NCBI RefSeq assembly: GCF_000280055.1
Contig: NZ_ALAB01000001.1
Span: 62,001-126,000 of the forward strand
Source: Alishewanella aestuarii B11
Lineage (GTDB): Bacteria > Pseudomonadota > Gammaproteobacteria > Enterobacterales > Alteromonadaceae
Length of the DNA: 64,000 nucleotides
Reading direction: 5' to 3'
In this document: positions 13,986 to 21,064 of the stretch, piece by piece
How positions within the stretch are numbered: position 1 is the stretch's first letter
Layout: every line of letters starts with the position of its first letter
Program-made: the position numbers and the translations under genes
Notes under the pieces: generated by a model
The model's input: only the letters and a program-made list of their open reading frames with translations
What the model was told of the DNA's origin: nothing
Database searches by the model: none

Positions 13986-14174
13986 ATGAGAGAAGATAAA
14001 AAAATATCTTTAGATGAATATGGTGACATTAAAATTAATGACGAAGTTCTGAATGAGATTGCTGGCGGTGTCAACCCTGAAGATTTAGATGATGATGAGG
14101 CTAGCAATAGGGGATGTGTCGAAGTAAATAAAGGGTGTGTCATTATAAAAAAAGAAGCTTCAGAAGTTCAATAG
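13986..14174 (+). CDS. Double-glycine leader peptide, likely RiPP precursor with two Cys repeats
   Basis: This is a 62-residue peptide with a strong ribosome site (GAGGTGAT) seven bases before the ATG. The leader ends in LNEIAGG (Gly27-Gly28), the type cut by C39 peptidases. The predicted core begins VNPEDL, is very acidic, then contains two heptads, NRGCVEV and NKGCVII, placing Cys44 and Cys51 in equal surroundings. A radical SAM enzyme gene follows after 84 bases. Together these suggest Cys-directed modification (for example thioether links), leader removal and export. This is inferred from pattern; I do not recognise the peptide family. Confidence 0.8.
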   Translation: MREDKKISLDEYGDIKINDEVLNEIAGGVNPEDLDDDEASNRGCVEVNKGCVIIKKEASEVQ

Positions 14175-14201
14175 CTCACTTTGTATATTGTGGACTGAAT
14201 T

Positions 14202-14234
14202 TTATCAGGCCTATATTTTTGTTTGGCCTGATAA
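14202..14234 (+). promoter_or_regulatory. Stem-loop between precursor and radical SAM gene (possible attenuator)
   Basis: TTATCAGGCC (14202-14211) and GGCCTGATAA (14225-14234) form a perfect 10-base stem with a 13-base loop, followed only by CTTTTG. A partial terminator or processing stem here would make more precursor than maturase message, as is common in RiPP operons. Confidence 0.6.
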
Positions 14235-14258
14235 CTTTTGTTGTTGCGGAGGTTTTGT

Positions 14259-15284
14259 GTGGAATTGATCAGTGGCTTTGATAGGAAAAAACTAGCTTCT
14301 TCATTAAGAAATGATAGATTTCATTTGATATTGTTTCCAACAGAAGAGTGTAATTTCCGATGTGTGTATTGTTATGAAGACTTTGAAATTGGTAACATGC
14401 CTCAGTGGTTAGTTGATGCTGTTAAAATTTTATTGTCCAGTAAGGTTAAAAATCTCAAAAGTCTAAACTTGTCTTGGTTTGGTGGTGAGCCTCTGGTTGC
14501 TAAGAAAATATTATTTGATATAGCAGAATATGCTTATGATTTATGTGAGAAGTATAGTTGTAAATTGCAGGGAGATTTGACTACTAACGGCTCTTTGTTG
14601 GATATAAAAACCTTAACAAGGTTAGTGGCACTTCGACAAAATAAATTCCAAATTTCTATTGATGGTGATGAAGAAGCGCATAATAAGACACGCATTACAA
14701 AGAACCAGCGAGGAAGCTTTGAAAAAATATGGCAGCGATTAATTGACGCATCAAAAACTGAACTCGATTTTATTATTACGCTGCGAGTTCATGTAACAGA
14801 TCTGAATCAAGATGGAGTTGAACGTTTTCTTAAGTTGTATGATAAACATCTTGCCGCAGATACAAGGTTTTCATTGTTTTTTAAAGCGATCGAGAACCTT
14901 GGCGGAAATCAGGATAGGGTTCAAAAACTTATTGCTAAAAAAAGCTCGAAAAATTTTGTTGCCGAATTAAATGCTCGTTATTATGGTAGTGATAGTGAGC
15001 AGTCAAACTATATTTGCTACGCATCCAAGCCTAACTCCCTTGCGATACGAGCTGATGGGAATCTTAATAAATGCACTGTTGCATTGAAAGATGACATCAA
15101 TCAGATAGGACGTATCAATGAAGATGGTACTTTAACGATTCAACATCAAAAAATAGGTAGCTGGATAAGTGGCTTTGACACACTGGATAAATGGCGCTTA
15201 GGTTGCCCATTAAGTTATTTCAATGCGCATCCTGAAAAAAAGAACGTGACAGTCGGGGATATCAATGTCATTCAGGTGGCGTAG
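14259..15284 (+). CDS. Radical SAM peptide maturase with C-terminal SPASM/Twitch-like cysteines
   Basis: This 341-residue protein has the radical SAM cluster motif at Cys31, Cys35 and Cys38 (CNFRCVYC) and the SAM-binding WFGGEPL. C-terminal cysteines occur in YICYASKPN, GNLNKCTVAL and RLGCPLSY and could hold an auxiliary cluster. Such enzymes modify ribosomal peptides by radical chemistry at Cys or carbon centres. I choose the GTG at 14259, six bases after CGGAGG; upstream in-frame TTG codons overlap that site. The gene is visibly AT-rich, unlike its neighbours, suggesting transfer. Its end overlaps the next gene by 20 bases. The substrate is probably the adjacent double-glycine peptide. Confidence 0.88.
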   Translation: MELISGFDRKKLASSLRNDRFHLILFPTEECNFRCVYCYEDFEIGNMPQWLVDAVKILLSSKVKNLKSLNLSWFGGEPLVAKKILFDIAEYAYDLCEKYSCKLQGDLTTNGSLLDIKTLTRLVALRQNKFQISIDGDEEAHNKTRITKNQRGSFEKIWQRLIDASKTELDFIITLRVHVTDLNQDGVERFLKLYDKHLAADTRFSLFFKAIENLGGNQDRVQKLIAKKSSKNFVAELNARYYGSDSEQSNYICYASKPNSLAIRADGNLNKCTVALKDDINQIGRINEDGTLTIQHQKIGSWISGFDTLDKWRLGCPLSYFNAHPEKKNVTVGDINVIQVA

Positions 15285-17735: not shown

Positions 17736-19904
17736 ATGCTGTTAAATGTATGTGTTTATTTGGATTTTATGTCTAAGGTTATCCTTGGTGAGTTTATTTT
17801 CGATAGCAGCAGTAATTTGCTGTATTCGGGCGAAACAGAGTTGGAAGCTGAGCCTAAGGTTCTGGAGCTCTTAGCGTTCCTGCTGATTCACCAGGACCGT
17901 TATGTCAGCCTACAAGAATTACACGAGCATGTTTGGGCTGGGCGTGTGGTAAGCGATACGGCAGTCCGGGGTACCATTAAAAAGCTGCGAAACCTGCTTG
18001 GCGATAGCAGTATTGATGAACCTAAATACATCAAATCACTATCAAAGCGCGGTTACAAACTGGTTTGTTATATTGCTGATGTTGTCAGTACGGCACCGAC
18101 GGAATCTGCCACACCTACAGGAGTTGAAGTCGAGCTTGATCTGTTACAAGCGTCAGGTGGTTATGCTGACGTACTTCAACAGTCAGCTAGTATCCCTATC
18201 CGCTCAGGTAGAGTGCCCTCTCTGGCATTTCTGCTTTTGGTTGGTGCGGCTCTCCTGTGGTTTATATTGCAGGGGCAGCAAGATACCCCATTATTTGACG
18301 AGCCGCCGTTATCAAGTCAGCTTATCCCAACCATCGCTGGAGAAAAACGTGGTTTGGCAGTGTCCCCAGATGGCGCCTACTTGGCATTTATTGGTCGGCC
18401 AAATCAGAGTGAGCCGTGGCAAGTTTACCTGATGGATCGCCAAAACCGCGATATTCGCCTTTTATCAATAACTACCCAACAGCCTAGCTTCCTAGTATTT
18501 GAGGATAACCATTCACTGCTGCTTGTTGATCTGGTAGTAGGAAACTCCTCTATCTACCGTTTGCAGTTGGATAATAATATGCAGCTTGTGGGTGAAGACA
18601 TGGTGATAGATTTTCCCCTTATATCCCACTTGGGTTTAGGGAGGGAGAAAGGCGACTGGTTAATTAATGCCACTGATGATATATACAGCACTCTGAAGCT
18701 ATATCGTTGGGATGCTGGCGCTGAACAGCTACAGCTGTTGCGGGCTCGAAGTAGTGTTACCGAGCATATTTATCGGTCAACTTATTCACCCTCAGGTCGC
18801 AGGTTGGCTAGCGCTGTACTTATCAATGGTGTGGAATTTCGGCTGGAGGTGCAGGATCTTCAATCAAAACAGATTTTGTACTCAGAACAAACCACTAACT
18901 CTATTAACCGCTTGGAATGGCAGGATGATGAGTCGCTTATTTTTCTTGATGATACGCAGGGGTTAGTTTTAGTTGAACTGACATCGAATAGGCAGCGGGT
19001 TATCATGGAACATGCTGAGGAAAAAATCGAAGATTTTACACTTGCTGGATCAGGGCAAAAGTTACTCATACTACGAAACCAATCCTTGTCAGAGCCCGTG
19101 TTTTACGAGTTAGCGCTTGAGTCTGAGTTTTCTACGGAGAGGATTGTCAACGTGCCCCATGCTTTGCGGATGCTCCATTATGCCGGTATCAATCAGGGCT
19201 ATTTTGGTGTTATACGACAGCAAGACCAGCGGATGTTGGTTAACTATGCTCCATTAAACAGCAATAAAGAAGTTCTTTTTGTAACAGATAAACATATAGA
19301 GATTTTAGAGCATCATCCCGCACAGAATGCATTGCTGTTGCAAGCAGGGCAGCAACTCATAGTGCTGGATCTGAATATGAGCGGGGTTGATCTAGTATCG
19401 ACTTCACAAAGCTTTCTTGATAGCCATGCCGCTTTTTCGCTGGATGGCTCTCATGTCTATTACGGCCAGTTAATTGCCGGGGAATGGGAGCTGTACCAGT
19501 TTGATCGCGCTAGTCAGCGCAGTCACCTGCTTGTTAAAGGGTATCGCTCAATACGTGAAACGCCAAAGGGATTTATTGCTGCGACCGGCAAGGGAGACTT
19601 GTATCTGCTGGATCAGGAGTTGCGTCAGCTAAAATCCCTTGGTCACAGTATTAACACCGAATTTATCAGCCGCTGGTATGTTAAGCAGCAAAAACTGATT
19701 TGGAGTGATTTCGATTTAGTCTCCACATGGTTAAATCAACTGGATTTGGACAATGGAGAGTTTCAGCAACGCCGTTTTACTTATGAAAAAATGCGGCCTC
19801 GTTTTGCCATCAACCAAAATGGTAGTCATGTGCTGGGTTATAGTTTAAGATCTCGTAATTCTAATCTCTATCACGTTGATTTTCCAAGCCTTTCTAAAAA
19901 GTAA
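17736..19904 (+). CDS. CadC/ToxR-like transmembrane transcriptional regulator with periplasmic propeller domain
   Basis: This is a 722-residue one-component sensor. The N-terminal winged helix of OmpR type (about residues 15-110; EPKVLELLAFLLIHQ, VSDTAVRGTIKKLRNLLGD, YIKSLSKRGYKLV) is followed by a linker, one membrane helix (VPSLAFLLLVGAALLWFIL, about 155-173), and about 540 residues with TolB-like blades (RGLAVSPDGAYLAFIG). The DNA-binding part is cytoplasmic and the propeller periplasmic. It may sense the peptide or its processing. An alternative start is ATG 17769, which trims eleven residues; the first start has AGCAGG upstream. Confidence 0.88.
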   Translation: MLLNVCVYLDFMSKVILGEFIFDSSSNLLYSGETELEAEPKVLELLAFLLIHQDRYVSLQELHEHVWAGRVVSDTAVRGTIKKLRNLLGDSSIDEPKYIKSLSKRGYKLVCYIADVVSTAPTESATPTGVEVELDLLQASGGYADVLQQSASIPIRSGRVPSLAFLLLVGAALLWFILQGQQDTPLFDEPPLSSQLIPTIAGEKRGLAVSPDGAYLAFIGRPNQSEPWQVYLMDRQNRDIRLLSITTQQPSFLVFEDNHSLLLVDLVVGNSSIYRLQLDNNMQLVGEDMVIDFPLISHLGLGREKGDWLINATDDIYSTLKLYRWDAGAEQLQLLRARSSVTEHIYRSTYSPSGRRLASAVLINGVEFRLEVQDLQSKQILYSEQTTNSINRLEWQDDESLIFLDDTQGLVLVELTSNRQRVIMEHAEEKIEDFTLAGSGQKLLILRNQSLSEPVFYELALESEFSTERIVNVPHALRMLHYAGINQGYFGVIRQQDQRMLVNYAPLNSNKEVLFVTDKHIEILEHHPAQNALLLQAGQQLIVLDLNMSGVDLVSTSQSFLDSHAAFSLDGSHVYYGQLIAGEWELYQFDRASQRSHLLVKGYRSIRETPKGFIAATGKGDLYLLDQELRQLKSLGHSINTEFISRWYVKQQKLIWSDFDLVSTWLNQLDLDNGEFQQRRFTYEKMRPRFAINQNGSHVLGYSLRSRNSNLYHVDFPSLSKK

Positions 19905-19993
19905 TAATTTCACCACAGTAAAGCTGGTTTTTCGTTATCCCCTCGGTTCCTTTTCTTATTTATCGTGTGCTCATTACAAAAAGGAGCCTCGCT

Positions 19994-20128
19994 ATGAAAG
20001 AAATGATATTCGCATTTTTATTGATATTGCCTTCAGTATTGTTGGTTGAAAATACTCCAAACGATGATGATAAAGCCGTTTCGCCTCTATCTTGGTGTTG
20101 GATCAATAATACTTGCAAAAACGAATAA
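19994..20128 (+). CDS. 44-residue secreted or membrane peptide with Cys/Trp tail
   Basis: This short gene has an excellent ribosome site (AAGGAG, eight bases before ATG). The product begins MKEMIFAFLLILPSVLLV, a hydrophobic export-like segment, then an acidic NDDDK linker, then a tail containing WCWINNTC, with two Cys five residues apart and two Trp. It ends 15 bases before the LuxR-type regulator, so the two are likely one transcript. It could be a signal peptide, an immunity or a second modified product. I recognise no family. It is easily missed because of its length. Confidence 0.65.
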   Translation: MKEMIFAFLLILPSVLLVENTPNDDDKAVSPLSWCWINNTCKNE

Positions 20129-20143
20129 TACATCGGGGGGCAT

Positions 20144-20773
20144 ATGAGCTTCTTAGAGAAAATTCTGGTTGAATTGGAGCAGATTAAAACTCTGCGGCAG
20201 TTGGAGCGCTATTTAATTCAGTTTAGTGAATTATCCCATATCGACTGGTGCTGTTTAATGGTTCATAGTTGCAACACTGTCTATATGGGGGATGCGCCTG
20301 AAGAGGTAAAACAACAACTTACCCTGGCGGTATTAAAGCAGGTAAATCAGTGTTGTAAACCTTCCTGGTCTGGCGCAGATGAATTCAGTAAAGCGATTTT
20401 TCCGCAGACCAGCCTGCTGGTTCCTATTATGGCAACGCGCCCCGATCATGCCTGCTTAATGCTTGGCTTTGCCAAGCAAAGCATCGAGCCCAAGCTTGCA
20501 CAAAAGCTAGCTTGGTTCTGGCAGGTCATTGCCTCTTATATCTACAACACTTATCGCCGTATTACGGACGATGGCGTTGTAGTTGATTTTCAATTAACCC
20601 CGCGTGAAGTTGAATGTGTCCACTGGGCAGCCCAAGGCAAAACCTCGTGGGAAATCAGCAAGATCCTTGGTATTACCGAACGGACAGTCAACTTCCATCT
20701 AAGCAATAGCATGCAAAAAACGGGTAGCTGCAACCGACAACAGCTTGTTCGTAATTGCATGAATATATTGTGA
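20144..20773 (+). CDS. LuxR-family transcriptional regulator
   Basis: This 209-residue protein has a C-terminal LuxR helix-turn-helix (about residues 148-205: LTPREVECVHWAAQGKTSWEISKILGI, then TERTVNFHLSNSMQKTG). The N-terminal ~140 residues resemble in length an autoinducer-binding domain but are Cys-rich (CC at about 36-37 and 67-68), so the ligand is uncertain. The ribosome site is CGGGGGG. It follows the 44-residue peptide and precedes the second precursor by 111 bases. It probably controls the exporter operon. Confidence 0.88.
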   Translation: MSFLEKILVELEQIKTLRQLERYLIQFSELSHIDWCCLMVHSCNTVYMGDAPEEVKQQLTLAVLKQVNQCCKPSWSGADEFSKAIFPQTSLLVPIMATRPDHACLMLGFAKQSIEPKLAQKLAWFWQVIASYIYNTYRRITDDGVVVDFQLTPREVECVHWAAQGKTSWEISKILGITERTVNFHLSNSMQKTGSCNRQQLVRNCMNIL

Positions 20774-20884: not shown

Positions 20885-21064
20885 ATGAACGATTTATTAA
20901 AACCGGTAACACCGGCACAGCCAGTAATGGCCACTACAACCCTGGAAGGCTTTATTGAAGTTACTGCCTTAGATGAACTGGACAAAATTGTTGGCGGCTT
21001 TCTTAACCCGGACGAGATTTACATTGAGTTGGAAGAGAGTCCTGTAAGTAGCTCAATGTATTAA
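20885..21064 (+). CDS. Second double-glycine leader peptide precursor
   Basis: This is a 59-residue peptide with an AGAGG ribosome site. The leader ends in the classical LDELDKIVGG (Gly37-Gly38), the recognition sequence for C39 exporter peptidases. The 21-residue core starts FLNPDEIYIELEE, is acidic, has two Tyr and no Cys. After the GG it shares the Asn-Pro-acidic-acidic pattern with the 13986 precursor. The C39 ABC exporter is encoded just downstream, so cleavage and export by it are likely. The lack of Cys argues against thioether formation; a signalling peptide is possible. Confidence 0.8.
   Translation: MNDLLKPVTPAQPVMATTTLEGFIEVTALDELDKIVGGFLNPDEIYIELEESPVSSSMY

Follow-up and report, generated by a model that had tools for sequence, protein, structure and literature searches.

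A family of short two-cysteine peptides encoded beside CadC-type propeller regulators in Rheinheimera and related bacteria

A reading frame of only 44 residues, located between two regulator genes in a 64,000-nucleotide stretch of Alishewanella aestuarii B11 DNA (the window), is, as judged from sequence comparison, a real gene of an undescribed peptide family. The frame is conserved at homologous loci, and the encoded precursors have an export-signal-like N-terminus and two cysteines, in some cases with repeated loops, in the neighbourhood of a regulator gene. The explanation that we prefer, with a probability of roughly 50%, is that the exported and oxidised peptide serves as a self-made ligand of the adjacent propeller regulator, with a LuxR-type protein as an optional second tier. 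Genes such as this one belong to a class that annotation can miss by reason of length. To our knowledge, the ligands of the CadC-like regulators with propeller sensors that occur in many gammaproteobacteria are not known, and a matched peptide gene adjoining such a regulator provides a directly testable candidate.

The peptide gene, its neighbours and its relatives

The gene occupies positions 19994..20128 of the forward strand, on which its ribosome-binding site and the two flanking regulator genes also lie, and encodes 44 amino acids followed by a TAA stop codon (MKEMIFAFLLILPSVLLVENTPNDDDKAVSPLSWCWINNTCKNE). An AAGGAG ribosome-binding site (19981..19986) lies 7 nt 5' of the ATG. The hydrophobic N-terminus (residues 1-18, 19994..20047) resembles a signal peptide and would direct export, after which an acidic NDDD linker leads to the two-cysteine loop CWINNTC (residues 35-41, 20096..20116), the conserved core position of the peptide family. 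The initial annotation had proposed an overlooked gene with this layout, and the hydrophobic start, the linker, W34, C35, W36 and C41 can all be read from the DNA, as can the ribosome-binding site and the 15-base gap between the peptide stop and the ATG of a LuxR-type regulator gene (20144..20773). The LuxR protein has a GerE domain and an AHL-receptor-like fold. With TM-scores no higher than about 0.5, its model resembles RhlR/QscR/SdiA-type receptors, which suggests that its ligand, if it has one, may be a small molecule.

Before the locus come the atp operon, a gene for an S9-type peptidase and glmU. Its other genes include a radical SAM gene, another gene for an S9 peptidase and two ABC exporters, one of which is of the C39 type. 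A likely RiPP pair is found at 13986-15284, where a 62-residue precursor-like ORF that contains two cysteines and a GG motif (..IAGGVNPEDLDDDEASNRGCVEVNKGCVIIKK..) precedes the radical SAM gene; the latter is related to peptide maturases, yet scores far below every NCBIfam cut-off. A second precursor-like ORF of 59 residues with a GG motif (20885-21064; ..LDKIVGGFLNPDEIYIELEESPVSSSMY) lies between the LuxR and C39 exporter genes, and both ORFs have NP[DE] after the GG.

The gene upstream of the peptide (17736..19904; 722 codons) encodes a CadC-type regulator, the presumed receptor, with a Trans_reg_C domain (E 5e-13); for alignments its second ATG at 17769 was used. NCBIfam CadC is its best match (E 1e-17), which is far below the cut-off of that model and covers the DNA-binding part only. 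An AlphaFold model based on 14 sequences (mean pLDDT 81.7, pTM 0.56) predicts a winged helix, a single membrane helix (residues 150-168, numbered from 17769; 18216..18272) and an all-beta region (residues 181-706; 18309..19886) that would form a periplasmic double beta-propeller. In structure comparisons the first propeller resembles TolB, including TolB in TolB-Pal complexes (Z 21-22, rmsd 2.7-2.8 over about 235 residues), and the whole beta region aligns with tandem propellers such as LRP6, with a large rmsd. In the majority of the best-scoring 30 regulators listed, the propeller region is free of cysteine; L078, L109, L162, L163, L179 and L255 have one there. A stable mixed disulfide between peptide and propeller is therefore unlikely, and this option was dropped.

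Relatives of the LuxR gene were compared from the same genus (36-38% identity) and from other Rheinheimera (64-67%). Nearly all have an in-frame small ORF with the same layout in the gap between the CadC-type gene and LuxR. Examples are MLKKISVAATALITVFSLLVSAPLLADDNTGKDKIDIKPYCWFICPPDNASE and MKVIIIALVLIFPSALMAESKSESETVSPLSWCKLTSSCEID and, in Shewanella, MSKLNLSTILLSLLIAYSHPSFAIDDNDPLVDILCLGPLCKDPLKED... These share a signal-peptide-like start, a short and usually acidic linker, a C-x(3-6)-C loop and a short tail. A mechanical scan of 445,604 intergenic strand-bases from 81 loci for ORFs of 40-80 amino acids outside long ORFs, with a Shine-Dalgarno sequence, a hydrophobic N-terminus and C-x3-6-C near the end, gave 14 matches, of which 13 lie between a CadC-type gene and a LuxR gene; as the scan criteria were fixed after some members were known, this figure describes positional specificity and is no blind test. 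When about 20 homologous loci were inspected for frameshifts or loss of the frame, either of which would have refuted the initial annotation, the reading frame was found to be kept, and differences between close pairs of genes, although small in number, are mostly at third codon positions. The conservation extends over several families of bacteria, and searches of the peptides against Pfam and NCBIfam gave only chance-level scores and no family match.

About 48 members have been gathered, from Rheinheimera and its relatives, Arsukibacterium, Colwellia, Shewanella and two further families of the order. Their precursors measure 42-99 amino acids, about 20-80 of which follow the signal. A strongly hydrophobic N-terminal segment is present in 42 of 43 members, and a permissive home-made test (not SignalP) finds residues suited to signal peptidase I in 38 of the 43. 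No clear cleavage site can be seen in the window member. Proline occurs within the loop in 34 of 48 members and tryptophan in 19 of 48, and only the loop of the window member contains WxN. Several precursors or loci carry the loop more than once. It is present twice in the L296 precursor (LACLWFPICKEPD and YACLWFPICKEPD) and in the L302 precursor (FVCTDSPTRCE and FICADSPTRCE), the gene for the latter lying after a separate CTDSPTRCERKI gene (L302, L307), and L204 has three tandem peptide genes that each end in CILLPQLCN. Processed peptide signals typically show such repetition of one loop in or beside a precursor. Loops are shared by the peptides of a locus and vary from one locus to another. 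In three of seven sets the loop is clearly better conserved than the linker, with values of 0.59 vs 0.33, 1.00 vs 0.56 and 0.93 vs 0.54. The sets in question are the R. pacifica group, genus g14 and the second locus described below, in no particular order; three sets have a slight excess, and in set g18a the loop is conserved no better than the linker.

Distribution and genomic partners

A profile search with the regulator gave strong matches in 58 of 395 genomes of the family. When 71 regulators of at least 600 amino acids were compared, with two peptides that the automatic start filter had missed added by hand, 33 had a peptide gene downstream and 38 had none. Peptide and LuxR occur together at 25 of the 71 loci, the peptide alone at 8, LuxR alone at 2 (L109, where LuxR is truncated to 81 amino acids, and L115 from Rheinheimera sp. 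D18) and neither at 36; three LuxR genes at a distance of about 1.4 kb were counted by hand, and as the rows are related, the p-value of the association is only indicative. Across the table the two genes tend to be present or absent together, and both are absent from L164 and L165, close relatives of the window regulator. On the regulator tree the peptide label changes about 12 times, with at least 10 changes required by branches that have good support, whereas shuffled labels need 24, which implies that the peptide was lost or gained many times.

When a profile made from first-locus peptides only (A4) was run against 31 genomes of the genus, the three top matches outside the training set (E 2e-5, 3e-5 and 3e-3) were all found between two further CadC-type genes. 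This second locus has the order mrcB-CadC-peptide-CadC-hemL, with outer genes that we take to be mrcB and hemL from their sequences. It is present in L272, L273, L274, L305, L306 and L309-L315, where RiPP and exporter genes are absent. A widened profile (A5) gave 38 matches covering both cysteines in the 395 genomes, after setting aside matches restricted to the signal-peptide part of longer ORFs. All 38 adjoin a winged-helix regulator of the CadC-propeller type, including one at a contig start that directly precedes such a gene; the second-locus matches are orthologues, so that there are about 4 independent kinds of locus rather than 38. Twelve of the matches were new: ten from the second locus, one extra peptide in a genus g14 locus and one at G170, where the peptide gene lies next to a MacAB-like exporter in a third kind of locus. 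Extension to 335 genomes of the order yielded one more two-cysteine match outside the family (G400), again abutting a winged-helix-propeller gene. The G400 peptide gene (L326 3500-3720) is convergent with this neighbour, unlike those at all other loci. A search for the second-locus regulator in the genome to which the window belongs was empty, a result of little weight.

The near-constant partner of the peptide is thus the CadC-type gene upstream, with LuxR as a frequent but dispensable neighbour. The idea that LuxR is the constant partner was abandoned on account of Pseudoalteromonas relatives of the window LuxR that have no cystine-loop peptide. Small double-glycine ORFs (NGG/HGG) precede LuxR relatives in Pseudoalteromonas L082, L083, L084, L107 and L110. 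A search of the window LuxR against plasmids gave no match. Other genes at these sites vary. In L030, L031, L032 and L033 the regulator-peptide-LuxR module adjoins, near glmU, a gene for a protein like class III lanthionine synthetases, with RamC_N, kinase and LanC domains, and the cargo genes at this spot differ from species to species. Four regulators without a peptide (L178, L183, L186, L188) are directly followed by a gene of about 960-970 amino acids; the products of the two that were tested (L178, L186) are M16 (insulinase-like) peptidases.

Self-made ligand, membrane-anchored partner or by-product

The fact that the peptide is almost always encoded beside a membrane regulator with a periplasmic sensor suggests sensing of a self-made peptide. 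The small precursor would be taken across the inner membrane by the Sec pathway, after which its two cysteines would be oxidised to a disulfide loop in the periplasm and the peptide would be trimmed. In the periplasm, or after leaving the cell, the looped peptide would bind to the beta-propeller of the regulator encoded upstream and alter DNA binding by its cytoplasmic domain, which would amount to autocrine or pheromone-like sensing. LuxR, where present, may relay or gate the output, with the neighbouring RiPP and exporter genes as probable targets in the window. The disulfide-bonded signal that the initial annotation had raised as a possibility agrees with the export signal, with the pair of conserved cysteines and with the link to a membrane regulator, while the disulfide itself and the signalling activity are putative, as are cleavage, release, propeller binding and the target genes.

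In favour of this ligand model we count the adjacency to a regulator in 38 of 38 matches, the recovery of a second locus, the repeated loops, the clearly stronger conservation of loop than of linker in three of seven sets and the likeness of the first propeller to TolB. Regulators of the same subfamily that lack a peptide are to be expected if a receptor is able to act without a signal gene of its own. Against the model, their number (38 of 71) implies that the propeller must also work without the peptide, the window member could remain anchored in the membrane since it has no clear cleavage site, set g18a has no excess of loop conservation, and it could be LuxR that acts as the true effector.

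The main rival of the ligand model is a minimal co-component of the TcpH/ToxS kind, in which the hydrophobic start would stay in the membrane as an anchor and the looped tail would stabilise or gate the propeller without being released. The window regulator has the cytoplasmic winged helix (Trans_reg_C match), single membrane helix and periplasmic domain (both predicted by the model) that are expected for such a system, and the next gene on the same strand, with G400 as the one convergent exception, encodes a small protein with an N-terminal Sec or transmembrane segment. TcpH itself has one N-terminal transmembrane segment that doubles as Sec signal and two periplasmic cysteines (PMC11323476), and the uncleaved appearance of the window member would suit an anchor. 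The precursors (44 amino acids in the window, 42-99 in the family) do not provide the lipocalin-like domain of VtrC or ToxS, and for most members the part that follows the signal is too small for such a fold. With a much smaller partner, at times in several copies, and another receptor fold, the system departs from the co-component family in the feature of the partner fold, yet the peptide may still work like a co-component. Signal peptidase I-compatible sites in most members, as far as the permissive test goes, the 38 regulators that do without a partner, and the two-loop precursors and tandem copies, which fit a processed ligand better than a subunit, make permanent anchoring rather unlikely, though it deserves serious attention.

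The remaining alternatives deny the peptide a role at the regulator. A RiPP-cluster product or small antimicrobial peptide that sits between the regulators by chance would account for the RiPP and C39-exporter genes that surround the locus in the window and in some Rheinheimera, but not for the second locus, where such genes are lacking, nor for the position of the peptide gene after the regulator instead of after modifying enzymes. The 44-residue peptide has no double-glycine leader for C39 export, GG-type ORFs being separate (13986-14174 and 20885-21064). The WIN motif had hinted at a radical SAM cyclophane substrate, a candidate that was discarded, since WxN and the tryptophans are not conserved and a common aromatic-x-Asn core is missing across the 48 loops. 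Homologous loci contain a LanKC-like enzyme or no RiPP enzyme and have no radical SAM gene, and that of the window has its own precursor-like ORF (13986-14174), which also speaks against the earlier suggestion of a third RiPP product. We regard an origin from RiPP or antimicrobial synthesis as improbable. Even less credit can be given to a leader ORF of which translation controls the downstream LuxR gene while the peptide itself has no function: the spacing of 15 nt to LuxR in the window would suit this, but 8 loci of the table, and the second locus wherever it occurs, have the peptide without LuxR, and conservation of the export signal and of the cysteines is seen in the protein sequence. Finally, the gene is short and is absent from some loci with a truncated LuxR or a broken regulator, as a chance or decayed ORF might be, but with in-frame conservation across families and other loci recovered by the peptide profile, a functionless ORF is hardly conceivable.

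Relation to known signalling systems

In the literature searched, no description was found of propeller CadC-type regulators with peptides, and the papers on transmembrane regulators that were searched for propellers do not mention them; such absence is no proof of novelty. The combination of a membrane-bound winged-helix regulator with an exported partner gene is of a known general kind, co-component signalling (PMC9214523). The locus resembles ToxR/ToxS, TcpP/TcpH and VtrA/VtrC in that a membrane-bound winged-helix regulator is followed by a smaller gene with a Sec or transmembrane segment (PMC9214523, PMC11323476, PMC13042144), but differs in its precursor of 42-99 amino acids with a tiny and sometimes repeated loop and in its double beta-propeller receptor domain of about 530 residues. 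With CadC of Escherichia coli the regulator shares an N-terminal winged helix, one membrane helix and a periplasmic sensor, whereas its sensor takes the form of a TolB-like double propeller and its gene is followed by that of a peptide. TolB and its partner Pal offer a further parallel, as a periplasmic beta-propeller that binds a partner and matches the first propeller in structure. However, TolB is a free periplasmic protein and no transcription regulator, and Pal and TolB are without sequence relation to the peptides.

Small exported precursors encoded beside their receptor, with a hypervariable signal and tandem or repeated copies, are characteristic of the Gram-positive agr and PlcR/PapR pheromone systems. 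The loci described here are similar, at the level of sequence, in having a small, putatively exported precursor, signal-like by its hydrophobicity and by the permissive cleavage test, beside a presumed receptor, as well as a variable loop and, in some cases, repeated copies. The pheromone-like proximity of signal gene and receptor gene applies to all 38 two-cysteine matches, with a receptor role that we infer for the regulator. The differences are that the hosts are Gram-negative, that the precursor combines a Sec signal with a two-cysteine loop, and that the presumed receptor is a membrane-bound propeller transcription factor instead of a kinase or a cytoplasmic receptor. We tentatively suggest, with less confidence than for the ligand model as such, that these peptides form a Gram-negative pheromone family of Sec-exported, disulfide-looped signals, sensed by one-protein propeller/DNA-binding receptors in locus-specific pairs of loop and receptor. 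If this is true, peptide signalling, which is best known from Gram-positive bacteria, would extend to a simple one-protein receptor in Gram-negatives.
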